Assembly (NCBI RefSeq): GCF_022814725.1
Contig: NZ_CP093442.1
Location: forward strand, 1,674,001-1,738,000
Origin: Bdellovibrio reynosensis
GTDB lineage: Bacteria; Bdellovibrionota; Bdellovibrionia; Bdellovibrionales; Bdellovibrionaceae
DNA: 64,000 bases
Reading direction: 5' to 3'
How positions within the stretch are numbered: the first letter of the stretch is position 1; every line of letters begins with the position of its first letter. The translations under genes and the position numbers were made by a program. Below, piece after piece: positions 3,495-53,293 of the stretch. The notes under the pieces are model-generated. The model had not been told where the DNA came from. It worked only from the letters and a program-made list of their open reading frames with translations, and ran no database searches.

Positions 3495-3512
3495 CCGCGT
3501 TCGAAGCAGAAA

Positions 3513-33418: not shown

Positions 33419-33495
<77 letters not shown>

Positions 33496-33636
33496 TTTTC
33501 TAACCTACTTTAGGTTCTCTTCTCTAAAATAAGCACAACAGACATCGATTTTAAAAATACGCAGGTTAGGTCCGAACCACGTTAAACGCAGTTAACCTCA
33601 TTCAAATTCGTAAAAATATATAAAAAAAGTGATCTT

Positions 33637-33669
33637 AATGTCCCAAACATACCCTTTGCTCGGCATAGG
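33637..33669 (+). promoter_or_regulatory. Two-block promoter motif upstream of the sigma/XRE/peptidase operon
   Basis: AATGTCCCAAA (33637-33647), 10 nt, then GCTCGGCATAGG (33658-33669), ending 21 nt before the sigma-factor start codon. The same two blocks with exactly the same spacing occur at 35782-35814. The layout fits a -35/-10 pair of an alternative sigma factor. There is no dyad symmetry, which argues against a repressor operator. Confidence 0.72.
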
Positions 33670-33690
33670 TAGTATTTAAGAGGGATATTA

Positions 33691-34266
33691 ATGAAAGAAC
33701 GTAACATCCATTTACTAGAAAAAACGGCCACGCCACAAAGTTACGCCTCTAGCGAGGAAGTGGAGTTCGCCGTTCGAGCACTAACACCAGGTGATCGCAA
33801 AAAACTTCTGCTTTCAGCGCGGTTCTGGTGGCGAAAGTTTGGCCTGCACTACTCTGAACTCCAGCCCGAGGACCTCTTACAAGAAGCAGTCTGTCGCGCA
33901 CTAAGTGGAGATAGAAAGTGGCCCAAGCACGTCTCCTTTATCAAGTTCATTAGCCAGACAATCAAAAGTATTGCTGGCCACCACCGCACAAGCAGAGAGT
34001 CTGAGCTAGATCGAATCAACCAAAAGATCACTGACGGATCAAGCGATCAAGACTCTAAGATTGACGCTGCCGCTGAAGTTGAAAAGATTCGTATCTTTTT
34101 TGGTGAAGACACTCAAGGTTTTGAAGTTCTAAAGTTGAAAGCTGAAGGACTTGATGGCGTAGAGATTATGGAAGCCCTCGAACTCGATGAAAAGGAATGG
34201 GAAACCGTTCGAAAGAGGGTTCAAAGAAAGGTCGCTAAATACATAGCAAGCAAAGAGGAGGAGTAA
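33691..34266 (+). CDS. ECF-like RNA polymerase sigma factor
   Basis: 191 residues. Region 2-like segment about 35-110: ARFWWRKFGLHYSELQPEDLLQEAVCRAL is the helical core, with KFISQTIKSIAGHHRTSRESE as the DNA-contact end. Region 4-like helix-turn-helix about 130-190 (FEVLKLKAEGLDGVEIMEAL, then WETVRKRVQRKVAKYIAS). Length and layout match small ECF-type factors. It is first in a tight operon with the XRE protein (1 nt gap) and peptidase (3 nt gap). The shared promoter motif upstream of this operon and of the ubiquitin-like operon makes it the likely activator of both. Confidence 0.8.
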   Translation: MKERNIHLLEKTATPQSYASSEEVEFAVRALTPGDRKKLLLSARFWWRKFGLHYSELQPEDLLQEAVCRALSGDRKWPKHVSFIKFISQTIKSIAGHHRTSRESELDRINQKITDGSSDQDSKIDAAAEVEKIRIFFGEDTQGFEVLKLKAEGLDGVEIMEALELDEKEWETVRKRVQRKVAKYIASKEEE

Positions 34267-34267
34267 A

Positions 34268-34852
34268 ATGAATAACAAATCAAATAACAAAAAGCCTTCG
34301 CCTCAATCAATCTTACAAGCGTTTGAGAGCTTTGCATTTGAGGCAACTGAAAAGGAACTCGATGAAGCCCTCACTGCGGCAGGTGAAGATCCAAAGAGTA
34401 TACTAAAAGCTGCTGATTCAGCGATTGCTCGCGCACTTGCCGAGGCAGGTAGGATATCTTCGAAAACCGAGCCAAAGATTCAAAACCAAAAGGCTCTTCA
34501 TGAGGGCCTTCGAACTATCATAACCCTATTGAGACGCAAGAAAGGCATTAGCCAAGAAGAATTAGCAGCTTTAGCAAGAATAAATCTCAGTGATGTACGG
34601 AATATTGAAACGGATGACTATTTCACCCCAAGTCCACGAACTGTCTATCAACTTGAACAGTTTTTTGAGCTTGAGCCTCGATCATTGGTATTGATGTCAG
34701 GCACAGTATCTAAACACTCTTCAGGATTTACTGATCAAATAGTTAAATTTGCCGCTCACTCAAAAGAGATAGGAAAGTTAAGTTCAGAAGAAAAGAAACT
34801 CCTAAATGACTTTGTTAAGTTTCTTTCAAATGAACTTAAAAAGCGCGGATAA
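34268..34852 (+). CDS. XRE-family helix-turn-helix protein
   Basis: 194 residues. The middle (about 77-140) is an XRE DNA-binding domain: LLRRKKGISQEELAALARIN is the helix-turn-helix, followed by NIETDDYFTPSPRTVYQLEQ. Before it lies a helical region of about 65 residues (SILQAFESFAFEATEKELDE) and after it another ~50-residue helical tail. By analogy with ImmR/ImmA pairs it may be a repressor or anti-sigma cleaved by the peptidase downstream; this is inference. Ribosome site GAGGAGG ends the sigma gene. Confidence 0.85.
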   Translation: MNNKSNNKKPSPQSILQAFESFAFEATEKELDEALTAAGEDPKSILKAADSAIARALAEAGRISSKTEPKIQNQKALHEGLRTIITLLRRKKGISQEELAALARINLSDVRNIETDDYFTPSPRTVYQLEQFFELEPRSLVLMSGTVSKHSSGFTDQIVKFAAHSKEIGKLSSEEKKLLNDFVKFLSNELKKRG

Positions 34853-34855
34853 CTA

Positions 34856-35770
34856 ATGAAAAATCCTACAGTCGGTAAACATGAGGCAGAGGACTTAAAG
34901 AAGATTGTTGAGAAAGTTATAAAGGGTCTTGGAAATCCAAAACCACCCCTTGACTTGCGTGACGTGCGAGAGCTACTTAAGCTCGACGTACGATATTATA
35001 GCAGTACAAATGACAGCTTTCTTCAGGAGACTATTAGTCGAATGAAAATTGCTGGAAAGCAGATCATTAAGCGTCCTTCGTTATTATTGGACGTCGTGAA
35101 AAAAGCAAAGCTCTCAGCACTTTGGATTCCTGATCATAAGCGTATTTTAATCGATGAAAGCACACCCAAACTAAAACATCGATGGTTTGAAGGTCATGAG
35201 ATTGGCCATGGGCTAGCCCCATGGCATAAACTATTCCTATTTGGCGACAACCAGGAAACACTGGGCCAAGGGTGCCACGAACAGCTGGAGGCAGAAGCAA
35301 ATTTTGCAGCGGGGCAACTTCTATTTCTTCAAGATCGTTTTGTTATTGAAGGGAATGACAATCAAGCCAACATGAAAACGGTTCTTCAACTTTCAGAAGT
35401 TTTTGGAAATACAAAAACTTCCACGCTTTGGCGTTTTGTTGAAGAATGTCATGAAGACAAGTTTCTGGTGGGGGTAATTTCCCAACACCCTCACCATCCT
35501 AAAAATGACTTCGATGCGCTAGCACCAATCAAGCATCTGGTTGAATCACCTGGATTCAAAGAACAGTTTGGTAATATCAATGTCTTTAATCTCTTTGCAT
35601 CGATCAAAAAGTATTGTTCTCGCAACAAAGGCGGCCCATTGGGAACGGCGATGATACGCCTTCTCGATGTGAACGGCGATGCTCATGACTTCCGCTTCGA
35701 AAGCTTTTCAAATTCTTACGAATGCCTGACCTTAGGAGTTTACGTTCGTAAAGTCGGAATTATTTTTTAA
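34856..35770 (+). CDS. ImmA/IrrE-family metallopeptidase
   Basis: 304 residues. Zinc site HEIGH at about 114-118 in WFEGHEIGHGLAPWHK, with the third ligand in EQLEAEANFAAGQLLF (about 142-157), the gluzincin pattern of ImmA/IrrE. The last ~140 residues (SVKT-type start at LSEVFGNTKTSTLWRFVEEC) form the C-terminal domain common in this family. Members cleave XRE repressors after DNA damage or a signal (ImmA of ICEBs1, IrrE/DdrO). Direct neighbour of an XRE gene, so that gene's product is the obvious target. Confidence 0.88.
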   Translation: MKNPTVGKHEAEDLKKIVEKVIKGLGNPKPPLDLRDVRELLKLDVRYYSSTNDSFLQETISRMKIAGKQIIKRPSLLLDVVKKAKLSALWIPDHKRILIDESTPKLKHRWFEGHEIGHGLAPWHKLFLFGDNQETLGQGCHEQLEAEANFAAGQLLFLQDRFVIEGNDNQANMKTVLQLSEVFGNTKTSTLWRFVEECHEDKFLVGVISQHPHHPKNDFDALAPIKHLVESPGFKEQFGNINVFNLFASIKKYCSRNKGGPLGTAMIRLLDVNGDAHDFRFESFSNSYECLTLGVYVRKVGIIF

Positions 35771-35781
35771 TTTTATTCATC

Positions 35782-35814
35782 AATGTCCCAAATCCTCCAA
35801 TAGCTCGGCATAGG
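35782..35814 (+). promoter_or_regulatory. Two-block promoter motif upstream of the ubiquitin-like operon
   Basis: AATGTCCCAAA (35782-35792), 10 nt, then GCTCGGCATAGG (35803-35814), ending 47 nt before the multi-ubiquitin start codon. Both blocks and the spacing match the site at 33637-33669 exactly, while the spacer bases differ. Confidence 0.72.
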
Positions 35815-35861
35815 GTTATAAATAAACGATCTTCACTAAGAGGATCTAACTTGGAGGTGTC

Positions 35862-36320
35862 ATGAAAGACATTGAAGTAACGAAACAGAAAACTCGTATC
35901 CACATCGACAGGGAAGAATTCGAGTCCAAGAATCCAACAACTGGAAAGGCGCTCTACAAGCTTGCCGACATTCCAGACAACAGAGAACTGTTCAAATCTG
36001 TGACTGGCGATTCTGAAGACTTTCTTATCTCGCGCGATGACCATGAAGTAGTCCTTCACGAGGACGACCACTTTTACACTCAAAAAGAAGTTCCGATCAT
36101 TGTGAACGGTAAAAGGAAAGAGACAGTCCAGTACGACTTATCTTTCGATGAACTCGTGAAACTAGCATTCGAAAATCCACCATACGGCCCCAATACACTC
36201 TTTACAATTACATATCGTAATGGTCCCAAAAAGAATCCCGAGGGCACACTCACGGCTGGTCACAGCGTAAGAATCAAGAAAGGAATGGTGTTCAATGTCA
36301 CAGCAACTGATAAATCGTAG
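35862..36320 (+). CDS. Multi-ubiquitin-domain protein (two tandem ubiquitin-like folds)
   Basis: 152 residues. Two beta-grasp units in tandem: about 10-70 (TRIHIDREEFESKNPTTGKA ... EVVLHEDDHFYT) and about 74-152 (VPIIVNGKRKETVQYDLSFD ... GMVFNVTATDKS). The pattern matches the bacterial multi-ubiquitin family. There is no C-terminal Gly-Gly; it ends TDKS like other family members, so conjugation through a classic diglycine is not evident. GGAGG sits 6 nt before the ATG. It overlaps the E1-like gene by 26 nt. The family occurs with E1-like and DUF6527 genes in scattered bacteria; I know of no settled function. Confidence 0.85.
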   Translation: MKDIEVTKQKTRIHIDREEFESKNPTTGKALYKLADIPDNRELFKSVTGDSEDFLISRDDHEVVLHEDDHFYTQKEVPIIVNGKRKETVQYDLSFDELVKLAFENPPYGPNTLFTITYRNGPKKNPEGTLTAGHSVRIKKGMVFNVTATDKS

Positions 36321-37491
36321 TTCGGACTTAAAGCGCCTTCAAGACGAGGGCTATGAAATTGAAATTCGCGCCAACCACCTACTCGTTAAGAACGTTCCTT
36401 ACCTGACCTCCAGAAAGGAGGTCAGACTTGGAGTTCTAGTCTCAACTTTGACTCTAGCAGGCGACAAAACAACGATTCCGGATGACCATCAAACCCACTT
36501 CCAAGGTGAGGTTCCATGTCATGAAGATGGCTCTCCCAACGGTAAGATCTTGAATCAATCGGCCCGAAGAACTCTCGGCAACGGAGTCGAAATTGACCAT
36601 TCATTTTCCGCTCGTCCAAAAGAGAACGGAGGTCGCTACCTAGATTATTACGACAAGATTACTACGTACGTAGCAATCCTCGAAGGGCCTGCTCAAACTG
36701 TTGATCCGTCGGCTACCGCCAAAACTTTCTCTGTCATTCCAGCGGAAACAACTTCCATCTTCAAGTACGTCGATACCGCGTCAAGCAGAGCTGCAATTGG
36801 CGCGGTCACGGACAAACTAAGAACAGGAAAAATTGGCATCATTGGTCTTGGTGGTACGGGCTCCTACATCTTGGATCAAATTGCAAAAACACCAGTCGAT
36901 GAAATCCATTTATTCGATGGTGACTTATTTCTTCAGCACAACGCCTTCAGATCGCCGGGCGCACCTTCGATCGACACACTGTTGAAAAAGCAAAATAAGG
37001 CCGAGTATTTTGGCGAGATCTACTCGATGATGCGAAATGGAATCGTAGTTCATCCTTACGAGGTCAATAGTACTAACTTAGATCACCTTAAAGAGATGAC
37101 TTTTGTCTTTATCGCTATCGACAATGGCCCCGCCAAGCGAACTATTATCGAGGCTTTAGAGGCATGGAATATCCCCTTCATTGATGTCGGTATGGGAGTA
37201 TATTTAGCCGAGGATAAGGTGGGCGGTATTCTAAGAGTCACAGCGAGCTCCCCGGCCATGAGAAATCATGTGCACGAAAAAGGGAGAATTTCATTCGGTG
37301 CCGCTCACGAAGAAAATGAATACAATCGAAATATTCAAATTGCTGATCTCAATGCATTGAATGGCATTTTGGCCGTCATCAAGTGGAAAAAAATGATGGG
37401 GTTCTACCTTGATTTTGAGAACGAATACTTCAGCACCTACACCATTGACGGAAATCATTTGAATAATGAGGACAGTGACAATGAAATCTAA
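36295..37491 (+). CDS. E1-like ThiF-family adenylyltransferase with N-terminal DUF6791 domain
   Basis: 398 residues. N-terminal domain (about 1-150) of the DUF6791 type, thought by others to have an E2-like relation; C-terminal ThiF/MoeB/E1 Rossmann domain (about 165-390): GIIGLGGTGS (181-190), acidic FDGD (207-210), HNAFR with N216 and R219, Lys 231-232, D276 in AIDNGPAK. The protein has one cysteine only, C75 in GEVPCHEDG, within the N-terminal domain. There is none in the usual E1 catalytic-Cys position. So it probably activates the ubiquitin-like protein by adenylation, and any thioester must form on C75 or on another protein. Confidence 0.87.
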   Translation: MSQQLINRSSDLKRLQDEGYEIEIRANHLLVKNVPYLTSRKEVRLGVLVSTLTLAGDKTTIPDDHQTHFQGEVPCHEDGSPNGKILNQSARRTLGNGVEIDHSFSARPKENGGRYLDYYDKITTYVAILEGPAQTVDPSATAKTFSVIPAETTSIFKYVDTASSRAAIGAVTDKLRTGKIGIIGLGGTGSYILDQIAKTPVDEIHLFDGDLFLQHNAFRSPGAPSIDTLLKKQNKAEYFGEIYSMMRNGIVVHPYEVNSTNLDHLKEMTFVFIAIDNGPAKRTIIEALEAWNIPFIDVGMGVYLAEDKVGGILRVTASSPAMRNHVHEKGRISFGAAHEENEYNRNIQIADLNALNGILAVIKWKKMMGFYLDFENEYFSTYTIDGNHLNNEDSDNEI

Positions 37492-37906
37492 CACTACCCT
37501 CAGGCACGAATTCGTTGAATTCGTGCCTGATCATTTGGAGCCGAATATTCTATACATCTCGATGATATACGCCACGGCTTCTCACTTGTGCTGCTGTGGC
37601 TGCGGAAGCGAGGTTGTCACACCGCTCACCCCAACAGACTGGCGCTTAACTTTCGATGGAACCACCGTGTCACTCGACCCCTCAATTGGGAATTGGAGCT
37701 TTCCTTGCCAGTCCCACTACTGGATAACTCGCAGTAGAACTAGATGGTCAAATCATTGGTCAAAAGAAAGAGTGAATTTTTCTAGGGCGATTGACTCTAA
37801 GAGAAAGCAGGACTTCTACGAAAAAGAAAGCTTAACCTCCAGCACACCATCCAAATCAAAAGCCAAAGAGAATTGGTTGTATCGAATCCTTCAATGCCTT
37901 AGGTAG
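37481..37906 (+). CDS. DUF6527 protein, ubiquitin-like operon partner
   Basis: 141 residues from the ATG at 37481, which has GAGG about 9 nt upstream; the ATG at 37466 is an alternative. Overlaps the E1-like gene by 11 nt. The DUF6527 signature is complete: HLCCCGCGSEVVTPL (about 36-50, four Cys), VSLDPSIGNWSFPCQSHYWI (about 63-82). Residues after ~105 are Lys/Ser-rich and less conserved. The Cys/His cluster could bind zinc or supply a catalytic Cys (C76 or C37-C41), so this is a candidate transferase or protease for the pathway. Followed by a strong terminator. Confidence 0.85.
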   Translation: MKSNTTLRHEFVEFVPDHLEPNILYISMIYATASHLCCCGCGSEVVTPLTPTDWRLTFDGTTVSLDPSIGNWSFPCQSHYWITRSRTRWSNHWSKERVNFSRAIDSKRKQDFYEKESLTSSTPSKSKAKENWLYRILQCLR

Positions 37907-37907
37907 A

Positions 37908-37935
37908 AAGTAGCCTGATATTGGTCAGGCTACTT
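37908..37935. terminator. Bidirectional Rho-independent terminator
   Basis: 11-bp perfect stem AAGTAGCCTGA / TCAGGCTACTT with a TATTGG loop, between the DUF6527 gene and the convergent 615-residue gene. It closes the ubiquitin-like operon at three genes. Confidence 0.85.
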
Positions 37936-37938
37936 CCA

Positions 37939-39786
37939 TTATGCGCATCCAACCACCCAGAAATCCGCAGTAACGGCGCGTGCAGAAGCTTGGGTTGAAA
38001 ACAACAGACTACGTAATTGAACCGCCCCGAGTGATTGCGGGGTGGCGCCGGGCATATTAGCTGGAAGCTGAGTCGCCCTTTGTGTGACGTGAGGCTGCAC
38101 AATTAAAACTTCGTATTTGGTGTCAGCCGGTAGACACATAAGCAAAGAGTAAAAGTCGAATCGATCGCCCTGAGGAGGACTATTTGTTTGTAAAGGGTCA
38201 TTCCAAAGTGGGCGATCCGGATCGAATATTCTATCTTGAATTCTTTCTACTAGGATCGATCTATCGATGTAACGAGCATTTTTGATGGCTTGACCACAAA
38301 CGACTTCAAACGGCCCTGCAACCATTTGTCTTCTTATTGAAGACGACTTAGCTCCCTTTATGTGGATGAGCGTGACTTTGACTTGATTCGTTGCACTCGG
38401 ATTGGCTGGGTAATAGAGGTGCACGAAATCAGCAATTTCCCCGGCATCATCATCGCAGAACAGCCACACATCTGAAGAATTCGACAGTGGCTTCAATCCT
38501 AGTGTGTTGGCGCCTTGAGCTGTACTAACAGTACTTACCAACCATGTAAACAAACTATCCTCATTGGGATTACTCCAAATCAAACTTAAATTGTTCGCAT
38601 CAGGTTTCTCTTTCTTAATGTCAACAGCGATGGATAACCGCCCATTATTTCTTGTGAAATTCGCCCAACGCCAGGAGGAAAAATTCTGGTCTTTTGTATT
38701 CGATATCGCCAATGCTCCGGCAGAAATCGTATGTCCAGATTCATAAAAGACTCTAAAGAGCTCAGGAAAGTCTGCCAGGGCATCCAAAATGGGAATATAA
38801 AGACTATTTGCCACGGGGGGGGCCGCCGTCATTTGAAAAAAGACATCGGTAGAATGCTTTTGAAACTTTGGTTCTAGATGAATTTGTATTGCCGCTCTTG
38901 TCGAGCCTCGATGCTGAATTTTCAGATGGAAACAGCAACTATTCTGATGTGAACAAGGCGCTGTCTCAAAGTTAAATAGAGAAATTAAGTTTTCTGCTTT
39001 TTCAATTCTTCTTCCAGAAAAAGCTTCCGGTGGCCCTACTTCAAAGTCAAATACCCCACTAACGCCATTAAAGTCTGAAAGCTCACTAGCTAAAACTGGC
39101 AATTGCCCATGCGATTTTGCATTTGCACGAAGGCTCTCAAATATTTTATCTAAACCATTAGCAAATTCGTCCAGATTCTCATGTGAACGAGTCCATACAA
39201 CAGAACTCCTGAGTGCCACGCCCATATCCTTCACCCTTGCAGCGGAAGCCAAATATGTTGAATCTGCCAAAGGATCTAATGCACACTCTAAATTTCTTCC
39301 ACTTAATACTTTAGAGTCCGCCTTAACATCGACCACTTTATGTGTTCCACTCATCCAAATCGCCTTTAATTGCGAAGTTGTTAAAAAGGCTTTAATAAGT
39401 TCTGCTGACGGAATTTTTCTTAATACTTGCAGCGTCTTATTCTGAACTAATGAATTTAGAATAAATGCTCGGTGAGCAGTATTAGAAGTGTAAATAGCCA
39501 CAAAATTAGCACTAACTGAGATAAGAACTAATTCATGTAATCTGTTTTTATTGACACTGCTCCAAGAACATTCTTCGTTTACAATGTATGAAAAGCCTTG
39601 AATTCGGATTTCATAAAAAAATTGCTCAGGAAAGTTTTCTATCTCGCCGATTGACTCGCCCAATTTTTCTTTAAAGATCTCTACCACTGCTTTCACGATC
39701 TCAATGTGTTTTGAATCGGAAATATCTTTAGAGTTTTGAAGCACCAGAACAGACCCATAGGGTGTAACTAAATGCGGCTCAGGCAA
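37939..39786 (-). CDS. Large orphan protein, candidate PD-(D/E)xK-like nuclease
   Basis: 615 residues, no family recognised. The start is uncertain: TTG at 39786 is used here, and a CTG a little upstream follows an AGAGG. The N-terminal ~300 residues are mixed alpha/beta with no motif I can name. The C-terminal part contains DDDAGEIADF (445-454), LIHIKGAK (473-480) and GQAIKN (498-503): an acidic strand, a [H]xK strand 22 residues later and a Gln another 22 residues on. That spacing fits a PD-(D/E)xK nuclease core with His in place of Glu/Asp. It is convergent with the ubiquitin-like operon across a terminator, so a shared role is possible but not shown. Confidence 0.6.
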   Translation of the reverse strand: MPEPHLVTPYGSVLVLQNSKDISDSKHIEIVKAVVEIFKEKLGESIGEIENFPEQFFYEIRIQGFSYIVNEECSWSSVNKNRLHELVLISVSANFVAIYTSNTAHRAFILNSLVQNKTLQVLRKIPSAELIKAFLTTSQLKAIWMSGTHKVVDVKADSKVLSGRNLECALDPLADSTYLASAARVKDMGVALRSSVVWTRSHENLDEFANGLDKIFESLRANAKSHGQLPVLASELSDFNGVSGVFDFEVGPPEAFSGRRIEKAENLISLFNFETAPCSHQNSCCFHLKIQHRGSTRAAIQIHLEPKFQKHSTDVFFQMTAAPPVANSLYIPILDALADFPELFRVFYESGHTISAGALAISNTKDQNFSSWRWANFTRNNGRLSIAVDIKKEKPDANNLSLIWSNPNEDSLFTWLVSTVSTAQGANTLGLKPLSNSSDVWLFCDDDAGEIADFVHLYYPANPSATNQVKVTLIHIKGAKSSSIRRQMVAGPFEVVCGQAIKNARYIDRSILVERIQDRIFDPDRPLWNDPLQTNSPPQGDRFDFYSLLMCLPADTKYEVLIVQPHVTQRATQLPANMPGATPQSLGAVQLRSLLFSTQASARAVTADFWVVGCA

Positions 39787-39937
39787 CTTGGCACCATTCC
39801 ACTTACTCAGACAAACCTCTCATGTAAACTATTTATTGTTAATCGTCCCATTGGTGTAATGGATGAGCAAGTTTACCAAATAAATATCGACCAAAGACCG
39901 CACTCAGAATCAAAGATGCTTGATGCTTATGCATCGC

Positions 39938-41248
39938 CTAAAATGTTACCTTTTTTACCCTGCGCTCTGGCGACGATATATTGCAATCTTGCCTGCGCTC
40001 TCTTTCGATCTCTTCATTTAGGTGAACATATCTCTCGGCGATGCGTTCACTTTGACCTAATACTTCTGCCGAAACCGTCTTATCTCCTTGGCATCTTTTT
40101 GTTAGCTCGGTGGAAAATGTGTGGCGAAGAGAATGGACATCCGCGCCGGCTTTTATTTTACCTTTCGATCTCAATTCACATAACACTTTGTACATTTGCG
40201 CATATGTAAATCCGAAAATCAGATTATCTTGCTTGGCACATTTTTGTTCTTTAAGTCTGCGGGAAACTAAGGTCGCAAGCTGTGTCGCAGTTTCTTCGTC
40301 AATTAGCGGAATATAGCGATTGTATTCAGGTGCAATCTCGTCGCGAGCCTTCAGTGGACCTCTCGGAACTTTTCGCTTGGAATCATATAGCGATTCCAAC
40401 TCTGGCTGATCAGTCAGAAGAATATAGCCATAAATTGAATACCCTGCCTCGGCAATTCTTTTAAATAAAGCTCGCTTAGCTTCTGGAACTGATCCGAAAG
40501 TAAAGGAGCCCACGTGAAGACCCAGCTGCTCATTAACCCTCATGCCACTCTGGGATAGAAGTTTGAAAAACAAACTGTATAAATCGCCATTCTCGCCAGC
40601 TGTAACAGCGTCATGGCTATTTGAAATCAATTTTTGTATTTCTCCATCTGTATATAGGTCTTCTAATCCCCGACGATCTGCCTTACCTGTTTTAAACTCC
40701 TTGCAACGGGGGAACGGACCCATGTAGTGCTCTTCCTCCATAAACTTCATAAATGAATTCAGCGCTTTTATGCAATTATTCCGGGAGTTCGTACTTAGCT
40801 TCTTGCTAATTTTAAGTGCAGGCGCTTGCTTCAAAAAATTTCTGAATTCTTTATAGTTTTTTGGCCAGGTTTCTATATTGTTCAGACCTTCGCGATTAAT
40901 AAAATAATAGAAAACGTAGTTTTTCACATTCGACAGATATGACTCTACTGTTGCTCTTTTCAGAGTTTCTTTTATCCAAATGACGTATTCATCACTTAGC
41001 TTATCAAAATCAGAATACTTCTTCTGCCAAGCAATTCGATCAGCTGCCTCCGTCATACGAGCGTCAATCTTACCTAAAATTCTACCGCGCTCTTTTTTTG
41101 CACTCTCTAGTGTTCGAATGTTTTCAGGCCAACCTTGCTTAAATCCAAATCTAGTCGTCTCTTGCGTTTTTCGGTCATGATAGATAAATCCAGTGAATCG
41201 ACCATCAGCTGATATTCTGAATCCTTCGAGCGATCTCTGCTTAGCCAT
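39938..41248 (-). CDS. Tyrosine recombinase (integrase)
   Basis: 436 residues. Core-binding domain about 85-190 (DFDKLSDEYVIWIKETLKRA ... CIKALNSFMKFMEEEHY). Catalytic domain about 205-420: Arg I in LLSQSGMRVNEQLGLHV, HxxR in DVHSLRHTFSTEL, nucleophile Tyr in ERIAERYVHL. The usual His/Trp before the tyrosine is replaced by the GQSERIAERY context. The ATG at 41248 has GAGGTG upstream. It overlaps the downstream half of the split recombinase by 8 nt, so they are one transcription unit. It is the only intact recombinase and the best candidate for island excision. Confidence 0.88.
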   Translation of the reverse strand: MAKQRSLEGFRISADGRFTGFIYHDRKTQETTRFGFKQGWPENIRTLESAKKERGRILGKIDARMTEAADRIAWQKKYSDFDKLSDEYVIWIKETLKRATVESYLSNVKNYVFYYFINREGLNNIETWPKNYKEFRNFLKQAPALKISKKLSTNSRNNCIKALNSFMKFMEEEHYMGPFPRCKEFKTGKADRRGLEDLYTDGEIQKLISNSHDAVTAGENGDLYSLFFKLLSQSGMRVNEQLGLHVGSFTFGSVPEAKRALFKRIAEAGYSIYGYILLTDQPELESLYDSKRKVPRGPLKARDEIAPEYNRYIPLIDEETATQLATLVSRRLKEQKCAKQDNLIFGFTYAQMYKVLCELRSKGKIKAGADVHSLRHTFSTELTKRCQGDKTVSAEVLGQSERIAERYVHLNEEIERERRQDCNISSPERRVKKVTF

Positions 41249-41666
41249 TCGCTTCACCTCTAAGCATATTTACAAAATTTAAAATATCTTTTTGGAGATC
41301 CTTAGAATAACCATTCAATAGTAATTTAAGCGCATCCTTTGGCAGCCCTTTTAAGATATCAATTCCCCCAATTTTTTCGATTACGCTTAATATCGTTTCA
41401 TGGGACGACTTAGAGGCCCTAAGTTCGATTTCGATATGCTCGTTTTTTCCGGTCCCAACAGAACCCTTGTTTCTTTTATCTTCCGCCAATTGTGCAGAAA
41501 TTTTTTTCTTATTTAGCTGATGAGACTCGTCGGTGTCTTTATTCGCATAGTGCTTTTCTACCATTCTAATTGAATTCAAAAGTAGATCAGCCGCCATGCG
41601 CGTACCATCATCAAAATTCCAGTCTACGTGACTTGCAACTATCGTACGGATGCATGCCATCCCCAT
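41241..41666 (-). pseudogene. C-terminal part of a split tyrosine recombinase
   Basis: 141 codons open from an ATG at 41666 that lies inside the end of the preceding 636-codon frame. Its first residues, read in continuity with that frame through a -1 shift at 41651, give HAIRTIVASHVDWNFDDGTR and then LLLNSIRMVEKHYAN, that is HxxR, a helix and the nucleophile Tyr. So it is the missing catalytic end of the larger frame. It can be a frameshifted pseudogene, a -1 programmed frameshift product, or a separately translated subunit started at the internal ATG. Confidence 0.7.
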
Positions 41667-43549
41667 CCAGTTTTGGAAGGAGAAAATAGGCGGGTTTCTT
41701 TCCAGATCGCATAGTCTTCAAATCTAGGAAACAGTAGGTGAGCACGTTCAGGGATGGAGCTAGTATATGCAGGCCGAATTTCGTCTACATATCTTCGAAG
41801 TACGTCATATGTTTTAATCTTTCCAGCCGATACCAAATCTAACAAATACAATTCGCATGATGGTTTTTTATCGTGACTAAATCGTTTATTTTCATATCTG
41901 CCATTTTTTAAAAGCTGCTTTGGAAATTCAACTCTCACAGTTTTTTTGACATGATCGAACTTCAACCATTCAATTCTAAAATCGGAAAAGGATTTCTTTC
42001 TTAGAGGGAAACTTCCTAGAAAAACATATAAAGCATATCTTAGCTCCAATGCTTTACTTTTAACTGCCAGGTCAATATGCTTTCTCAAGTTTTCGAGGAA
42101 TCCAATGTATTCCAACATCGGCATTTTTGGGGTATTGAATTCTCGAATGAACAAACCGGTATTTTCTTCCTCGATACGATCTTTTAGGCCGTTCTTAAAC
42201 TTTCGTATTTGTTTAAAAATTGTGCGACACTTCTCGATCCACTCCGCTGATGATAAATTTTCTCGGTCAAACAAAGCCTGCGACTGAGTTACAAAACCAT
42301 GGGTAGTATTAAACATATTATCCAAAATCTGAACTGGCTTCTCTACCGTCCTCGTAACAAACTCTGACGTGGCCTCCCCATCTAACAATCTTCTTATGTT
42401 CGTACGTTTCAGAACGAACTCTTCATAAGCGCGAATATTTTCGATTTTCGCCAACTCACAGAAGTCCAAAGTCTGAAGGGTGTAGCCCATTCCCCTACTC
42501 GCATCTTGAAGCATCTGATTTGTCACACCAAAAGGTTCAAAGTTTTGCTTGGATTTATTCCAAACTGCCAAATCTAAATCGGTCCCGTTTTTCGGAAGAC
42601 AAAGGAAACCAGCATAGACCTCAAGTTGAATAACTGCCGCTTTTTCTGTTGGGTATCGTCCTTGAAGATCGGGAGTCCATCGCGTCGTTCTCTCTAAATC
42701 TGTATCTTTTGCTTTTTTATAGGTGGCATAAGCCGCAAACTGTTTGAACAAGTTCGGTGCATCTTCTAGGCACATCCGATATTTCATATCTCGATTCAAC
42801 AACCAAAGTTGTTCTCCTCTGACCGTTTTCGAATGTGTGATCCTTTGTGCAACCAATTCGGTCAATGTCCCAGCAGGAATATCCAATGCCTCTTCAATCT
42901 TTTCTATAAGTGGTATGGACTCTGAAGAAGGACGCTGATGACAGATCTCCCAATGAGAAAATGTACTGTTGGGTTTTCGACCAACGGCCACGGCTAGCTT
43001 CGACGTCGTAAATCCTTTTAGTGTCCGGATTCGCTTTAGGCGTTCAGCAAATGTAGGAGCTTTTAAAGCGTCCTCAAGTGAAAACACCTTTTGATAATAC
43101 AGCGCTACAGCTGAAACGTGTGAGGCGACGGAGGCATCTTTTCCATTGTTCTTAAGCCATGTGCGAAACTTCTTTATATTTTTGTCCCATACAACTCCCG
43201 TCAATGCCGTGCCGATTTCTGAATTTTCTCCAATCTTTAGAAAATCTCGAAAGAATACCACGAAGGAGGCTTTCCTATTTGCAAACAAGTTCGTTCCTTT
43301 GAACTCTGGATTTTCGGTTTTTTTGACTTCAATTTCTTTCGCTACAACTGACTCGTATGAATTTATCAATTCGACATATTTCATTTCTTCTAACCTCAAC
43401 TTTCTAAAGGTGGGGTACGAGAGAAATGCTGAATGATTGATTCTGCTGTTTTGGTATGGAGCTAAACGCAAATTCCTAGTGGGAACTTCTGACTCAGAAG
43501 AGACAGTGCGATAACTTCTTGAAACTGTTTGTTGTTTTTCAAAAATCAT
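41639..43549 (-). CDS. Large tyrosine-recombinase-like protein with inserted XRE domain, ends before its catalytic motif
   Basis: 636 residues. A unique N-terminal region, then an XRE helix-turn-helix at about 165-230 (RLKRIRTLKGFTTSKLAVAV, PSSESIPLIEKIEEALDI). The C-terminal part (about 500-625) has a recombinase-like Arg-containing helix (ALELRYALYVFLGSFPLR), the strand pair IEWLKFDHVKKTVRVEF and a PKQLLKNGRYENKRF segment, then stops at GWGWHASVR. The stop falls within the HxxR box and the rest is in the -1 frame downstream. The size and neighbour integrase recall multi-recombinase transposons such as Tn554 (TnpA/TnpB), by analogy only. Confidence 0.65.
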   Translation of the reverse strand: MIFEKQQTVSRSYRTVSSESEVPTRNLRLAPYQNSRINHSAFLSYPTFRKLRLEEMKYVELINSYESVVAKEIEVKKTENPEFKGTNLFANRKASFVVFFRDFLKIGENSEIGTALTGVVWDKNIKKFRTWLKNNGKDASVASHVSAVALYYQKVFSLEDALKAPTFAERLKRIRTLKGFTTSKLAVAVGRKPNSTFSHWEICHQRPSSESIPLIEKIEEALDIPAGTLTELVAQRITHSKTVRGEQLWLLNRDMKYRMCLEDAPNLFKQFAAYATYKKAKDTDLERTTRWTPDLQGRYPTEKAAVIQLEVYAGFLCLPKNGTDLDLAVWNKSKQNFEPFGVTNQMLQDASRGMGYTLQTLDFCELAKIENIRAYEEFVLKRTNIRRLLDGEATSEFVTRTVEKPVQILDNMFNTTHGFVTQSQALFDRENLSSAEWIEKCRTIFKQIRKFKNGLKDRIEEENTGLFIREFNTPKMPMLEYIGFLENLRKHIDLAVKSKALELRYALYVFLGSFPLRKKSFSDFRIEWLKFDHVKKTVRVEFPKQLLKNGRYENKRFSHDKKPSCELYLLDLVSAGKIKTYDVLRRYVDEIRPAYTSSIPERAHLLFPRFEDYAIWKETRLFSPSKTGWGWHASVR

Positions 43550-43913
43550 TTATTACTCCATACCAAAAATGGTCTTTAAATCTTTCTTAGAGGGACAGTC
43601 GCAGATCGATTGAATTTTCGATGCGGATCAATGATTTCAATTACTTAGAATTTTTTTTGGTATTACCAAAAAAAAGTCATAACTAAGCTTGGTATTGGTT
43701 AAATTTTTCCTGATTTCTCTGAACATTTAGCACCCGTGTTCTCAAAATGGATCACTCGGATAAATAGCGGTTTTAATAATTTGGCAGGAGTTCTAAAACC
43801 TTAAGTGTGCGTGCTGTGCGCGCACGTAACTTATTGAATTATCTACTGTTTTAGCAGTTTAAGGTTAGATATAATCGACCCAGCACCAAAAAATACTATT
43901 AGGAATATTAAAG
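43550..43913. other. Intergenic region with several inverted repeats
   Basis: 364 bp between the divergent recombinase and metallophosphoesterase genes. It holds an almost perfect 25-bp palindrome at 43651-43675 (arms TTTTTTTTGGTA / TACCAAAAAAAA around one base), related TACC/GGTA-type half sites nearby (TACCAAAAATGGT near 43562; TTGGTATTGG near 43690), and GTGCGTGC-TGT-GCGCGCAC near 43808. The repeated TTGGTA/TACCAA halves would suit an operator for the XRE-containing recombinase. No gene seen. Confidence 0.55.
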
Positions 43914-44591
43914 ATGAAAATACACGCGATAAGCGACACACACGGTAACCATCATGCTTTCGATAAAATTCTAAGTGGTGGCGACTTAATCGTTCACTGC
44001 GGTGATTCAGACTGTAATGATACCGAATCATCCGACAAGTTCTTCAAATGGTGTCTCAATATCTCTTCCCGATACTCAAAAGGAATGATCCTTACAGGAG
44101 GAAATCACGATAGCTATTTGGCCGGCCACATCGCTGAAATAAAGAATTTTTTGTCTAACTCAAATGTTCACTTACTTCTAAATGAATTTGTCGACCTAGA
44201 AGGTTTTAAAGCTTTTGGCAGTCCATGCTCAATTTTATACAGCGATACCTGGAATTCATTTGCAGACACGGATCGCGAACTCAGTAAAAACTGCTGGCAG
44301 CAAATACCTAACCAACTCGATCTTCTCGTAACGCATTCCCCTCCATTTAATATCCTTGATGGAGGAATGGGATCACCAGGCCTTTTGGAAAAGATCAAAG
44401 AGGCGCAACCAAAATTACATATTTTCGGTCACATCCACCAATTTGGCGGTGTCTACGACACGCTCTCTTCAGTTTTCGTCAATGCCGCATCGCTGGGAAG
44501 TTTAGGCTCGAGTCCTAAGTATCCATTTGAAATTGAATATGACTTGCTTTCTAGAGAAGTAGTCTCCGTCAAAAGAAGCAGTTTCTACTAA
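43914..44591 (+). CDS. Calcineurin-like metallophosphoesterase
   Basis: 225 residues. All five metal motifs are visible: ISDTHGNHHAF (about 6-16), VHCGDSDCND, TGGNHDSY, VTHSPPFNI, and IFGHIHQFGG. This is the compact MPPED/YfcE-like class acting on nucleotides or phosphodiesters. Ribosome site is weak. Followed after 26 nt by a small helical protein gene, so a two-gene unit. Its place between recombinases and Wadjet suggests either a passenger or a nucleotide-based defence module; the latter is only inference. Confidence 0.85.
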   Translation: MKIHAISDTHGNHHAFDKILSGGDLIVHCGDSDCNDTESSDKFFKWCLNISSRYSKGMILTGGNHDSYLAGHIAEIKNFLSNSNVHLLLNEFVDLEGFKAFGSPCSILYSDTWNSFADTDRELSKNCWQQIPNQLDLLVTHSPPFNILDGGMGSPGLLEKIKEAQPKLHIFGHIHQFGGVYDTLSSVFVNAASLGSLGSSPKYPFEIEYDLLSREVVSVKRSSFY

Positions 44592-44617
44592 CAATTTACC
44601 GTGAAAGTTGGAAGGTA

Positions 44618-45166
44618 ATGGACGACATACAAATTTATATTCGAAATGAATTACAAAGACTACGTATTCACTGCCGTAATTTTGGGCCTTGGGGCTTAAA
44701 CGAGTATGAATCCCAACTTTTAGAGCTCCACTTAGCTTGGAATGTCAGTAGCATTGAAAGTATCATCCACAACTTCCTAAAAACCTTATGTGCAGAAACT
44801 GAAAACAAAGTCAGAATTCAATTTCTACCATCAGTCAAATCAATAAAATCTGAATCATCAAAGACAGATTTCATCCCATTTGAAGGGCGTCCATTCGCAC
44901 TCTTGTCAGCTCTATTAAATCAGGTCGAAGCCGAAATGCCTCAAACAAAATATCGAGAGGATCTCAAAAATATTAAAAGTTTGTTTAACAGATATAAAAC
45001 TATCTCAGTCCGCCAACTTGGGCTTTTAGCAATGCACACAAATAATTTTTATATTGGTGATCCTGCGCTTCTAAATGAATTAAAGATCGAACAGATCTTT
45101 GAAGATAGCAAAACAGGAGGACTATCTGTTCACAAAAAACTGAGGCAACTACTGAAAAAAAAATAA
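44618..45166 (+). CDS. Partner of the metallophosphoesterase, unknown function
   Basis: 182 residues, mostly helical, soluble, no domain recognised. N-terminal helices (DDIQIYIRNELQRLRIHC; YESQLLELHLAW), a central stretch ESSKTDFIPFEGRPFALLSA, and a basic end (KKLRQLLKKK). Ribosome site GGAAGG precedes the ATG by 5 nt. It ends before a hairpin terminator. Pairing with the phosphoesterase gene suggests a joint function. Confidence 0.65.
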   Translation: MDDIQIYIRNELQRLRIHCRNFGPWGLNEYESQLLELHLAWNVSSIESIIHNFLKTLCAETENKVRIQFLPSVKSIKSESSKTDFIPFEGRPFALLSALLNQVEAEMPQTKYREDLKNIKSLFNRYKTISVRQLGLLAMHTNNFYIGDPALLNELKIEQIFEDSKTGGLSVHKKLRQLLKKK

Positions 45167-45187
45167 TGAAAAAAGCTTGAGATCATT

Positions 45188-45218
45188 GCGGCGCTAAACA
45201 ATTTCTTTGCGCCGCTTT
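45188..45218. terminator. GC-rich hairpin terminator between convergent units
   Basis: Stem GCGGCGC / GCGCCGC (45188-45194 with 45209-45215) followed by TTT on the plus strand. It separates the metallophosphoesterase pair from the Wadjet/AlbA operon end. Confidence 0.65.
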
Positions 45219-45238
45219 GATGTGACCAATTTGAATGC

Positions 45239-46213
45239 CTATAATATCTCACCCTGAATGACTATTGCCGGTCCTCTGGGATTGCTTACTTTACCCTGGA
45301 TATCTACGAGTGGAATTTGAACTCTCCACTTTCTAATTGGAAAGTCATCAGCTGCTATCTGACCCTCAATAATTAAATCGCTAGTTGGGTGCAAAACGTT
45401 TCCAGCTGCATCGACCTGACAATGGTACTCCATTTTTGTAACAGGTAAGTCAGTATTAGGATGAACAACAATATCAGATCCTCCTCTATATTTAGATAGA
45501 CTAGTCGCGCTTGGAAATGGAGAAAGACCAAAATGGCCATTTCCGGTAATGCCGTAGGAATTAAACGAAAATCCGGCATATGAATCAACATTCAATAGAA
45601 GGAATCTGCCCACGGCCCTCCCATTATTCATAACTCCCAAAATTAGCTCGATTTTCCCTCTACTATTCACATTGCCAGACATCTGTACGACAGGAGCGAG
45701 TGAAGGGTGATGCCGTTTTCCAAACATATCGGCTATTTGATAATGTTCCATTGGCAAAAATGAATCACCGATTCTTTGATAATACTTTTTATCTTTCATT
45801 GAACAATGCGGTGCCTGATCACTCTTAGGAACGTATATTATTACAACTCCTAAACTTCCCCCAGAAACAGGAATACTTTTTATCAGTACTCCTTGAACGG
45901 GAAATGAAGTTGCACGAGATATGTAACTATTCACTTCCTGTTCGAATAAAACGATCGGCTGAATCGGCTTTAAAGAGGGGGATGCATTTTGAGGAGCATC
46001 TACACCGAGAATTATTACCCCACCGTCAGCGTTCGCAAAACCAGCCAAGCTTTTGGACAAAATCTTCTGAAGATCTGAATCTACATCTTTAGTGCTATGA
46101 TCTTGTTTGGTTTTAAAGTCGATATACAAATTTTCCACTTGCCCACTAATTAAATTTGCAACGTCGGTTTCTAAGTTTAACGAATCAAAAATTTCTTTTG
46201 CAGGATCTCTCAT
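45239..46213 (-). CDS. AlbA/Schlafen-type ATP-binding domain protein, last gene of the Wadjet operon
   Basis: 324 residues. N-terminal AlbA_2 domain (about 20-165): VENLYIDFKTKQD, SKSLAGFANADGGVIILGVD, and the terminal KYYQRIGDSFLPMEH, which is the RxG-type motif of the family. The C-terminal ~155 residues are a beta-rich domain without a name known to me. AlbA_2/Schlafen-like domains occur in several nucleic-acid-targeting defence genes. The gap to jetD is 35 nt on the same strand with no terminator, so it is probably co-transcribed. Confidence 0.82.
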   Translation of the reverse strand: MRDPAKEIFDSLNLETDVANLISGQVENLYIDFKTKQDHSTKDVDSDLQKILSKSLAGFANADGGVIILGVDAPQNASPSLKPIQPIVLFEQEVNSYISRATSFPVQGVLIKSIPVSGGSLGVVIIYVPKSDQAPHCSMKDKKYYQRIGDSFLPMEHYQIADMFGKRHHPSLAPVVQMSGNVNSRGKIELILGVMNNGRAVGRFLLLNVDSYAGFSFNSYGITGNGHFGLSPFPSATSLSKYRGGSDIVVHPNTDLPVTKMEYHCQVDAAGNVLHPTSDLIIEGQIAADDFPIRKWRVQIPLVDIQGKVSNPRGPAIVIQGEIL

Positions 46214-46248
46214 TTTGCCTTCTCCGACTATTTCTTTGAATTTTCGAC

Positions 46249-47346
46249 TTAAAACGGTTTCGAGCGCTCTATCTCTTGCACTACATACGATATTTCAATT
46301 TGCTCCTGTTCAATTCGAATTCCTTCTTTGCAAACCCGAACATACTCTTCTTGTAGTATGTGAATATTTTCAACCGATGGCTTATGGCTTTTTACCGTTT
46401 GGATGAGACTACCGAAGTAGGTAATCGCATTCTGGTCCATTGCAACTGGAGTCACATTCTCCATTTGGGACGAAATACCATTCAAGATTTCTATACCTTC
46501 CGAATCTATATCACCCCAATAAAATACCGTTCCAGGTAAAAGACGCGAAAAATGCTTGAGGCCAGCAACTCTCCATCCTCCACCGAATATCACTAGCGAA
46601 TCATGAATTATTTCGGCAAGTGGATGAAACGATTCTTCATTTTCAACGATGATGGTCCTTTTAACATCGAATAAGAAATCACCAGCATTTATTTCATTAA
46701 TGACGCCATAAAAGTTAGATACGGAAACTCCTCTGATCGATACCTTATTTGCAAAAAATTGGAATGAAATAGGTTTTTTCTTCAATCCCAAATAATCGAA
46801 TACATCGCCCTGGCCATCATTAAGAACTCCGGCAAAGGTAACTGAAAGGAGACCTTTTACTAAAGGATTGTCCGCTAATAGTTTAGTCGACTGCCCATGT
46901 GCAATCTGCCTGGGAAGTAAGCCTTTAATAATTTCTCTATTTTCGACTATGTACTCTGCAATTAAAACTGATGCTTGCAAGTCTTCGTGATTTTTTTTGC
47001 AAAGAGAATAATTGTCACGGACGTAGGTTTTCACATCTAATACTTTGCCCACTGAAATCGCTGATTCAAAACTACGTCTAATTTTCTTCAATTCGGGCCT
47101 AACTCTATAAATTAAAGGAGGTCCAAATTTGATCACGGATGGAAAACCCGTTTTCATCCCGGATAAACGCGCGTCACGCCATTCCACTATTTCAATCTCT
47201 TGGTATCCCCTAATTTGTTGCTCGAATTGAGTAAAATTTTTCCGAATCTCTTCGGTTAACCTCAGATCACAAGTGAACTCGTCGATCCCATCAATAAGAA
47301 AGCTCTTCTCGATTGAATCAATAACTTTATCAACGCGAAAAATCAT
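46249..47346 (-). CDS. jetD: Wadjet protein JetD (TOPRIM nuclease subunit)
   Basis: 365 residues. The DUF3322/DUF2220 pattern: an N-terminal helical part, then a TOPRIM-like C-terminal half with VIFGGGWRVAGLKHFSRLL and FYWGDIDSEGIEIL (DxDxxG, about 270-280). JetD cuts plasmid DNA once the JetABC motor has extruded it fully; the TOPRIM Asp residues are the catalytic metal site. The ATG is 3 nt after the jetC stop. Confidence 0.92.
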   Translation of the reverse strand: MIFRVDKVIDSIEKSFLIDGIDEFTCDLRLTEEIRKNFTQFEQQIRGYQEIEIVEWRDARLSGMKTGFPSVIKFGPPLIYRVRPELKKIRRSFESAISVGKVLDVKTYVRDNYSLCKKNHEDLQASVLIAEYIVENREIIKGLLPRQIAHGQSTKLLADNPLVKGLLSVTFAGVLNDGQGDVFDYLGLKKKPISFQFFANKVSIRGVSVSNFYGVINEINAGDFLFDVKRTIIVENEESFHPLAEIIHDSLVIFGGGWRVAGLKHFSRLLPGTVFYWGDIDSEGIEILNGISSQMENVTPVAMDQNAITYFGSLIQTVKSHKPSVENIHILQEEYVRVCKEGIRIEQEQIEISYVVQEIERSKPF

Positions 47347-47349
47347 AGC

Positions 47350-50300
47350 TTAAGCGTACTCCTCTTCAGACGGGTCAATCAGAGCGGCGCGCTCCTCTGC
47401 TGACAAATTGTCGATATCAATTTCAGCCGCTTTTGAATGCTGAGTATCTGTATTTTTAATTACGGACACTATCTTGTTCATCATTGGGCGAAGAAGATCA
47501 ACTTTGCTATAAGGAGTAAGCAATACCGCCTGAAAACCCATGTCGCCAAACAACTTCACAATTCCTTCTGGTTTTTCGTTATCCAATTTGTCTGCAAACT
47601 CGTCCAGTATAATGAATCTGAAGGTATTTAGTCCCCGTATAGGATCATTGAAATGAAACTTCTGGGCTAAGGCCATTGCCAGTAACACATAACAAAGCTG
47701 TACCGTTTGACCACCAGATTTGGCATCTTTGGATGAACCTCTAAATATTTCTGTAGCCTCATCAGCCCCGGAAGCAGATCTAAACGTTGATTTAATGTAA
47801 AATACAAAATGATTTCTGGGATCTGTCGCAAAATCTCTCTTAGTGCCATCTGCCATAAATTTACTAAATGGTTCCAAAACACGATCAATCTCGTCAGCCT
47901 GACTTTTTGGATCTAATGATCTAAACCGTGCACTAAAGATTCCCTCAAGCACGTCTAAGAGGCGATTAAACTCTTTAATTCTTTGATCATCCTTAGCATC
48001 GTCATATCCAAGTTCCAAGTATGCCTTCTCGAACTTCATGTCACGGATACCAGAATTCAGTGTCTCTATGTCTTCCTTGATTTTCTCGATACTTTTTTTG
48101 TGAGTATCTATGAAATCACGAATCGATTCCCAAAGCTTAGTTGAATAAACTCTATTCCACTCATCATGACATGTAGGAAGCTCCGTATCGCCAAGATACG
48201 TTAAATGCTCTTTCCATCCAGAAGCTTTCTTTTTGAACAAAGTTTCACTATTTAAATTTACGTCAAATTCCAAACTGGGATTGGGATACGATGTTTTGTA
48301 CCTGTTTAGATTTTTATATAGATTCGGCGCAACACCATTGCTATTTGAGTTTTGGACCTCAGAATTGAACTCACGCGCAAACTGCTGGAACGTGATTCCA
48401 GATTTAACGACTTCATTCTTAATGCTTGTCAGTTCTGCATCGATATCATCTTTACTAAATAAATCGTTTAAAGACTGCCCCCTGGAGACTTTTTCATCCA
48501 ACACTTTGAGAAGGATTCTTGTGGACTCTGCCACCGCCCCATCCAACGCTTCAATCTCTTTATTGTATGTTTTTATCAGCGTCGATTGCGCGGACTCTAA
48601 ACTAAGCGCCTCATCTCTACGCACTCTACAAGCTGACCAAAGTTTTTTGGCCTTATTATAGTCATCGTCGCCCTTGGAAAGATCCTCTTTTTGTTCATTG
48701 AGGGCTTTTAACGAAAGCTCCGTCTCTGGTATATCCAAAAATTCCAACCCTGATTCTAACAATTTCATTAAGAGCATTCGATTATGGGTTTCCGTTTCAA
48801 TTACCGCAGTAATCGTTTCCAAACTCTTCTGAGATTTCGCAATCTCAAGACGAAGTCTTTTCACTTCAGCTAGCAACTCACTTCGTTTCTGCTCAGGATC
48901 CCAACCTATTGGTGCATCAATCCTCTCACCATGTTTAACACGATACTTTGCATTAATCTTAACATAGCCCTCTTTGGTAACGACCATGTTGGTTCTTTTT
49001 GAAAACTCAGAAATTTCAACTATCCGCACATCAAAATCGGATTGCAGCCATTCTCGAACTGCATAGTAGAATGAGCTTTCCGATGGATCTCTAAATTTGA
49101 TTTTATCAAGAACCGAATCTTGTGCTGGCGCCGCCACTACATGTTTCGACAACGAAAAGTCCTTCAGACTCTGAATTCCGATTCGTCGCTTGTTTTTATA
49201 ACGATTCAGCCAGGCGTCAGCTTCAACCTCATATTGAGGATGAACCACGAGCCTAGATGCAATACTCGAGAATACCGCTTTAATGGCCTTTTCATAATTC
49301 CTATTTTCAGAAGGAATCATAAAAAGTTCGCCAACAAACATTATATCCTTTTCTTGAATGCCAAGATCCCGCATCATTCCAAGCTTAATTTCGTAAAGAT
49401 CCTTAGGAAAACTAGTGCTGTTGCGTTCGAGATAATTCAGCTCATCGCTGGCGGTATTCAACAGATCCTGGTCTCGGCTTATTTCAATGACGGTTTTTAC
49501 CTTAGATTCTTCTTTATCCCTTAGCACATTTGAAATGGTAGCCAACCGACTATTGGCGGCAGCAATCAGCTTTTCGCGCGCATCCTTACCCGTTGGGATT
49601 TCAATTTCAACTTTTTTGGCCACGATCTTTGCATCTCTCAAAGCATTATTCTGTCGATCTAGTTGCTGCTCCTTAAGAGAAATCTGTGAATCGACCTCTC
49701 GCATCTTCATCGCAGTGTCCGAGGAATTAACCCGGGCCGCTAGTGACATTTCCTCGTCATTTAGTGCTTTAATTTTCGGTCTAACTTGATCCAAGACCAG
49801 TTGGCATTGTTGGATTTCAATTTCTTTTACTTGCTTCTGATTGATTCTCGACTCATTTTCGAGATGTAGTGAGTAGATCTCCAAAAGCTTCGATTTTACT
49901 TTTCCAGCGTGCTGCTTTTCAAAGCCTTCTTCAATCTTATCAAAATCTTCAACTATCTGCTTAGATAGTTCATACATTGCAGTCGTATCTTGAATCTTTT
50001 TCGCAAGAAAGCTTGTTTCCTTAATGCGATCCATGAGTGACTCAATGGCCTGATCTTTCAAAGGTGAAAGAATAAAATCACGAACAAAATAGTTAACGTT
50101 GTCGATGGCTTTGGCATTTGCCGCTTTCATAAGAAGAACGATATCATCGCTCTCTATTCCACCAAAAAACTCCCCTAGTTGCCGCGTATACTCATTTCCT
50201 TTGGAGGTAACTTCTACGAGACTGTCATATTCCGACTTCATACCGCGAAGAAAGAGGCGAGCACTCTCATAAGGCGTCCCCTTTGGATTCATTAGATTGT

Positions 50301-53212: not shown

Positions 53213-53224
53213 TCTCCCCGACCA
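53213..53224 (+). other. attR: duplicated tRNA-Pro 3' end
   Basis: TCTCCCCGACCA, identical to the tRNA-Pro end at 33484-33495. It marks the right junction of the island. Confidence 0.8.
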
Positions 53225-53288: not shown

Positions 53289-53293
53289 CGTTT

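Follow-up and report, generated by a model that had tools for sequence, protein, structure and literature searches.

A sigma factor, adaptor, and CapP-like peptidase module with a shared promoter-like element adjoins multiubiquitin and other bacterial immune operons

The locus and its protein families

The window analyzed here is a stretch of 64,000 nucleotides (nt) from Bdellovibrio reynosensis (contig NZ_CP093442.1, positions 1,674,001 to 1,738,000), in which six genes, running from a putative sigma factor gene to a DUF6527 gene, all lie on the + strand 3' of a tRNA-Pro gene. The first three encode an extracytoplasmic function (ECF)-like sigma factor of 191 amino acids (aa) (33691..34266; open reading frame, NCBIfam, and family profile), a 194-aa X-XRE fusion protein proposed to be the anti-sigma factor and peptidase substrate (34268..34852; Pfam and X profile), and a 304-aa CapP-like M78 (ImmA/IrrE) zinc peptidase (34856..35770). 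They are followed by genes for a 152-aa multiubiquitin protein (35862..36320; Multi_ubiq at residues 79–150, E = 2e-17), a 398-aa DUF6791-ThiF E1-like protein (36295..37491; matches to both domains), and a DUF6527 protein (37466..37906; E = 1e-24). The intergenic gaps are 1 nt (sigma/XRE), 3 nt (XRE/peptidase), and 91 nt (peptidase/multiubiquitin). The first-pass annotation had described the first three genes as a tight operon just before the ubiquitin-like genes, and the reading frames lie as it gave them.

The window sigma factor had no Pfam match at E ≤ 0.1, and its NCBIfam match to sigma70-ECF (E = 3.7e-4) fell under the curated cut-off. The same model was matched at E ≤ 0.01 by 9 of 13 homologues (best E = 2.2e-8), and a profile of the 13 homologues gave ECF SigH as the best Protein Data Bank (PDB) match (E = 5.7e-4), the top three matches being sigma factors. 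The homologues and the profile thus fall into group 4 of the sigma-70 family, whereas the window protein alone stays under the cut-off; at the level of sequence, the assignment is weak for this protein by itself and firm for its family. Relatives turned up in 27 plasmid records and, among the 367 other genomes of the phylum, in five, whereas the viral-contig searches returned no relative and the phage records no match. The set of 23 loci used below comprises the window, 15 of the 27 plasmid records, three further plasmids, and four of the five genomes; the other 12 plasmid records appeared to be near-copies judged by organism and score. The fifth genome (G297, locus L034) was left out because of a weak sigma match (E = 3.6e-4) and because neither X nor peptidase was seen. 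The sigma factors of the 23 loci are diverse, with a median pairwise identity of 24% and a single pair above 60% (L017/L023, 79%).

The gene directly 3' of sigma encodes, in 22 of the 23 loci (exception, L029), a small helical protein termed X. The 16 proteins of X set A2 share a helical stretch at the N terminus and a motif at the C terminus. Of 18 loci compared, 16 have an X start that overlaps the stop of sigma. A single-query search on plasmids for X without sigma gave two records, both of them module loci. No helix–turn–helix (HTH) domain was found by Pfam in seven of eight X proteins scanned from outside the window; the eighth (L014) has a weak Pfam HTH match and is another X-XRE fusion. 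The window protein has an HTH_19 domain at residues 87–139 (E = 3e-8), and its residues 4–64 match an X profile from which this protein and that of L014 were excluded (E = 1.5e-6, with six proteins in the set searched).

The XRE part leads to a second, sigma-less controller, found at positions 3170–5430 of each of L153–L156. Its co-directional genes encode a CopG-like ribbon–helix–helix (RHH) protein, a GNAT protein, an XRE protein, and an ImmA peptidase, and are divergent from multiubiquitin-ThiF-DUF6527 (L153 and L155) or cyclic oligonucleotide-based antiphage signaling system (CBASS) operons (L154 and L156). The RHH-GNAT pair, which replaces sigma, resembles a toxin–antitoxin pair. Residues 83–189 of the window protein are 36–40% identical to the XRE proteins of this controller, which lack the X domain, their matches to the X profile being no better than E = 0.028. 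By these comparisons, the "XRE protein" of the window is X fused to an XRE domain common to the second controller type. The X part thus travels with sigma, whereas the XRE part goes with this type of peptidase, which supports X as the putative sigma-binding piece and the XRE–peptidase pair as the putative sensor and cutter. We think it rather likely that the window has a chimeric version, with an anti-sigma domain joined to a protease-cleaved XRE protein that the RHH-GNAT-XRE-ImmA controller also uses, so that one protease–sensor family would serve different output modules. The XRE partner of sigma named in the first-pass annotation therefore stands for the window protein itself but not for the family, in which the conserved partner is X.

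The peptidase of the window matches Pfam M78 at E = 0.022, under the cut-off. A 15-member family profile gave CapP as its best PDB match (E = 4e-19) and also matched IrrE (E = 2e-11), and HExGH and a downstream Glu are invariant in all 15 aligned peptidases, in keeping with the HExxH motif and third-ligand Glu of the zinc peptidase of CapH + CapP. The assignment as an ImmA/IrrE-type enzyme with a HEIGH motif, made beforehand and now placed at residues 114–118, was confirmed. The enzyme is 48–51% identical to the peptidases of L153–L156 and 25–27% identical to three that accompany short X proteins.

As in Bub/multiubiquitin operons, the downstream genes combine a Multi_ubiq protein and a ThiF E1-like enzyme in one operon. 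The window type differs in having DUF6791-ThiF and DUF6527 and no E2 or JAB domain recognizable by Pfam; several other sigma-linked ubiquitin operons contain Prok-E2_E fusions and/or JAB-ThiF.

Recurrence of the module and its promoter-like element

A peptidase gene accompanies the module in 19 of the 23 loci (missing in L015, L027, L029, and L051); in L022, both X and the peptidase are frameshifted. In 13 loci, an immune operon adjoins the module, usually divergently. Eight of these operons are ubiquitin-like, with multiubiquitin or E2-E1 genes (the window, L013, L014, L015, L018, L024, L049, and L050), four are CBASS (L022, L025, L028, and L033, the last with Cap15), and one is Pycsar (L021; PycC, E = 7e-233). 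L014, on a planctomycete plasmid, has the tandem layout of the window, and its frameshifted multiubiquitin/E2-like stretch is missing from the annotation of the record. A DUF3892 gene or a member of a 92-aa family adjoins L016, L017, L023, L026, and L032, and the neighbors of the remaining five loci (L027, L029, L030, L031, and L051) are unassigned.

The linkage anticipated in the first-pass annotation thus recurs: the sigma–adaptor–peptidase trio lies beside multiubiquitin and other immune operons and is, on this distribution, portable across distant bacteria. Its description as a possible controller of a ubiquitin-like system fits the eight ubiquitin-like loci and is too narrow in view of the CBASS and Pycsar neighbors. 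The window genes lie in an island that gathers defense genes and has an integrase, a setting in which an unrelated sigma operon could come to stand beside ubiquitin genes. Since the linkage recurs in independent and diverse loci and the promoters are paired, such a chance neighborhood is highly improbable.

Some other genes were noted near these operons. The small genes facing the module are a 92-aa open reading frame in L016, L017, L022, and L023 and a DUF3892 gene in L026 and L032. S8 serine peptidase genes are annotated within 3 kb of the module in L050 (478–3090) and L051 (3003–5300). In L019 (3107–4470), another sigma-70-family gene, a hypothetical gene, and a UvrD helicase gene are divergent from multiubiquitin-ThiF-DUF6527; this sigma-70-family gene does not match the sigma profile used for the module.

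Two promoter-like elements in the window, P1 and P2, share the 31-nt pattern TGTCCCAAA-N10-GCTCGGCATAGG in the same orientation. P1 (33639..33669, + strand) lies 21 nt 5' of the sigma ATG, and P2 (35784..35814, + strand), in the same register, 47 nt 5' of the multiubiquitin ATG. In the 3.58-Mb genome, P1 and P2 were the sole matches to the exact blocks with a 6–14-nt spacer, and again the sole matches with a 10-nt spacer and up to three mismatches. The reversed pattern gave no match in the genome, and the element is directional. No sigma-70 consensus match points into the start of the sigma or multiubiquitin gene, and the region has as many such matches as shuffled sequence has on average (6 versus 6.3). 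Across loci, the consensus is approximately TGTCCGA followed by GCATAGG, with 18 nt separating TGTCCG and GCATAG. As in ECF sigma/anti-sigma pairs, the sigma gene has at its own promoter the same motif as the target promoter.

Fifteen sites from 8 loci served to train a two-block motif. For the scan of any one locus, the sites of that locus were excluded, and the best match within 170 nt before sigma was compared with equal-size windows in the same locus. In this leave-one-locus-out test, 17 of the 23 loci were significant (p < 0.05) on the sigma strand and 15 on the facing strand. As the sites were first chosen by eye, a pick-free test was added and the untrained loci are given separately: among these 15 loci, 10 were significant on the sigma strand and 8 on the facing strand (Fisher, 2.4e-16 and 1.8e-11, with p floored at 0.001). 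In the pick-free test, the best-paired 31-nt stretches of the regions upstream of sigma and of the effector outscored shuffles (p ≤ 0.05) in 10 of 20 loci. None of 10 sigma-less multiubiquitin/CBASS control loci reached p < 0.05 on either strand. When whole loci were scanned, the best scores of 19 control loci were 4.9–13.7 bits, and the weaker module loci fall in the same range. P2 lies outside the 170-nt region scanned before sigma, yet ranks first across the 64 kb.

Individual loci are informative as well. The two sites of one locus co-vary, as in the untrained CBASS locus L033, which has TGTCCAA..GAGCCTAG twice. In L029, in which sigma is an orphan without X or peptidase, the element is present and ranks first in the locus. 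For L014, the sigma start was placed in frame 81 nt within the annotated gene, a choice made after the element was noticed there; the rank-1 site of this locus falls inside the sigma gene. Another L014 element (6674–6704) lies 15 nt past the end of the peptidase gene, ahead of the frameshifted multiubiquitin stretch, as in the tandem layout of the window. When viral contigs were scanned for the promoter, 63 loci had the right spacing and 7 had a spacing one longer together with one more fixed base; these matches were read as chance, with no X-profile match and one marginal sigma match (L114, E = 1e-3).

The element could also be an operator. In ordinary CapH + CapP control, the XRE protein would be a DNA-bound repressor cut by the peptidase, and sigma would be a passenger. 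The CapP-like peptidase, the XRE domain of the window protein, and the position of the module beside immune operons agree with such control, as do the XRE–peptidase pairs of L153–L156, which adjoin multiubiquitin and CBASS operons without the module sigma. None of these four loci, however, has the 31-nt element, which is present where X has no Pfam HTH and before the orphan sigma of L029. The module adds sigma and the X family to the two-component scheme of CapH + CapP, which has no dedicated sigma; a sigma gene leads the window operon, and, among the X proteins scanned, an HTH partner beside the peptidase was found in the window and, weakly, in L014. The element is directional, has promoter-like spacing, and tracks sigma. 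We consider the operator explanation improbable. Because the element follows sigma even in L029 and is absent from the sigma-less L153–L156, these comparisons strongly suggest that sigma recognizes both promoters.

Proposed switch and known controllers

The module, its linkage to immune operons, and the shared element are evident from the sequences. Here, we propose that they probably constitute a portable switch, in which sigma, adaptor, and CapP-like protease control the adjacent immunity operon. Sigma would guide RNA polymerase to the atypical promoter before its own operon and before the immunity operon, giving positive feedback and output, respectively. X, translated right after sigma and fused to the XRE domain in the window, would keep sigma inactive. 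A stress signal would turn on the zinc peptidase, which would cut X, and the freed sigma would then drive expression of multiubiquitin, E1, and DUF6527. The shared atypical promoter joining the sigma gene to the ubiquitin operon supports in part the earlier proposal that sigma controls the ubiquitin-like genes. That X is an anti-sigma factor is moderately supported, because its start overlaps the sigma stop and because X persists in loci that have no peptidase. Cleavage of X by the peptidase is suggested with similar strength by analogy, since CapP and PprI do likewise to their partners. DNA damage or single-stranded DNA (ssDNA) may be the signal, a tentative suggestion drawn from CapP and PprI.

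Several points weigh against this proposal. The first training sites (15 in 8 loci) were chosen by eye. The sigma-side element was not significant in 6 of the 23 loci (L024, L027, L028, L030, L031, and L032), and neither strand was significant in L024, L027, and L032, although L024 has a paired variant in the pick-free test; the two top motif sites of L027 fall within the gene. Within the phylum, just 6 of the 368 genomes have the sigma gene, and the genome of the window is the only one of these with a Multi_ubiq gene. The structure models are weak, with a predicted local distance difference test (pLDDT) score of 63 for sigma and 45.6 for X; a Foldseek search with the sigma model gave a sigma-H chain as the best match (E = 0.038), with non-sigma folds close behind. 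These single-protein models were rejected as evidence because of their poor quality. Finally, X has no sequence resemblance to any known anti-sigma factor, and the window version retains an XRE domain that could repress directly.

The last two points lead to other explanations. X might be a chaperone or adaptor and no inhibitor, the peptidase targeting sigma itself or another protein. In addition to the dissimilarity of X to anti-sigma factors, the occurrence of sigma and X without peptidase in L015, L027, and L051 agrees with this idea. Against it, M78 peptidases with known targets (CapP and PprI) cut an adjacently encoded regulator, according to the available text of PMC13373217 and PMC10904395, and we regard a chaperone role as doubtful. 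Alternatively, the fused form of X in the window and in L014 agrees with two locks: sigma would drive both promoters under restraint by X, and the XRE part would in addition repress P1 and P2, so that one cut would open both. No XRE operator was identified at the locus, and this variant, which seems unlikely to us, would refine the proposed sigma switch rather than contradict it.

The controllers of immune operons named in the available portion of PMC13373217 are CapW/BrxR, CapH + CapP, and CapK + CapS, and a sigma controller is not named there. Of 544 Bub operons in that report, 219 have CapW or CapH + CapP and 59 have CapK + CapS. CapK + CapS and CapW/BrxR resemble the module as small portable controllers by Bub, CBASS, and other operons, with a shared promoter and autoregulation logic. 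They repress transcription, with relief by phosphorylation or ssDNA, and no sigma factor is named for them in the same text, in contrast to the module. The closest logic is that of the type III CRISPR system CalpL/CalpT/CalpS, which, in the accessible part of PMC11417357, combines an ECF sigma, an anti-sigma factor, and a protease that cuts the latter in an immune setting. Its protease is a cyclic tetra-adenylate (cA4)-activated Lon-SAVED protein, whereas that of the module is an M78 zinc peptidase, and the annotated neighborhoods of the module showed no genes of type III CRISPR. In the open-licence literature, no description of CBASS, Pycsar, or ubiquitin-like operons under a sigma-X-ImmA controller was recognized, as judged mostly from titles and the openings of abstracts; within this scope, the earlier statement that no ubiquitin-like operon with such a controller had been described holds.

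The described neighbor controllers, as far as these partial sources go, work by repression and de-repression. A sigma switch, if true, would instead follow an activation logic with positive feedback, and would be portable since its own promoter comes along. The controller and its shared atypical promoter point to a new way of turning on immunity genes. Such a promoter code lets targets be found by sequence and makes the switch directly testable. It flags the 92-aa and DUF3892 families, most members of which are preceded by the element, as candidate immune or accessory genes, and the 328-aa protein of L030 as a candidate immune gene.

The surrounding island

The tRNA-Pro gene (33419..33495, + strand) is the insertion site of an island of ~19.7 kb (33496..53224), bounded on either side by a 12-nt copy of the end of the tRNA (TCTCCCCGACCA; 33484–33495 and 53213–53224). 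In the relative G151, homology picks up again 64 nt past the tRNA match, at a point equivalent to window position 53300, and in G153 it did not resume past tRNA-Pro within the stretch compared. A 19-nt inverted copy of the 3' part of tRNA-Pro (53293–53311) lies just beyond the right end of the island.

The 615-aa product of 37939–39786, whose gene is convergent with the ubiquitin operon, has only a weak PADLOC match (PDC-S71, E = 1.5e-4). For a phosphoesterase-like protein (43914–44591), PADLOC gives a match to its candidate family PDC-S10 (E = 1e-47); this protein was not found in the 23 other genomes of the genus searched. The same island contains a Wadjet-like set (46249–52905), in which the gene at the JetA position has no PADLOC match and the other three were matched to JetD, JetC (E = 1e-99), and JetB.

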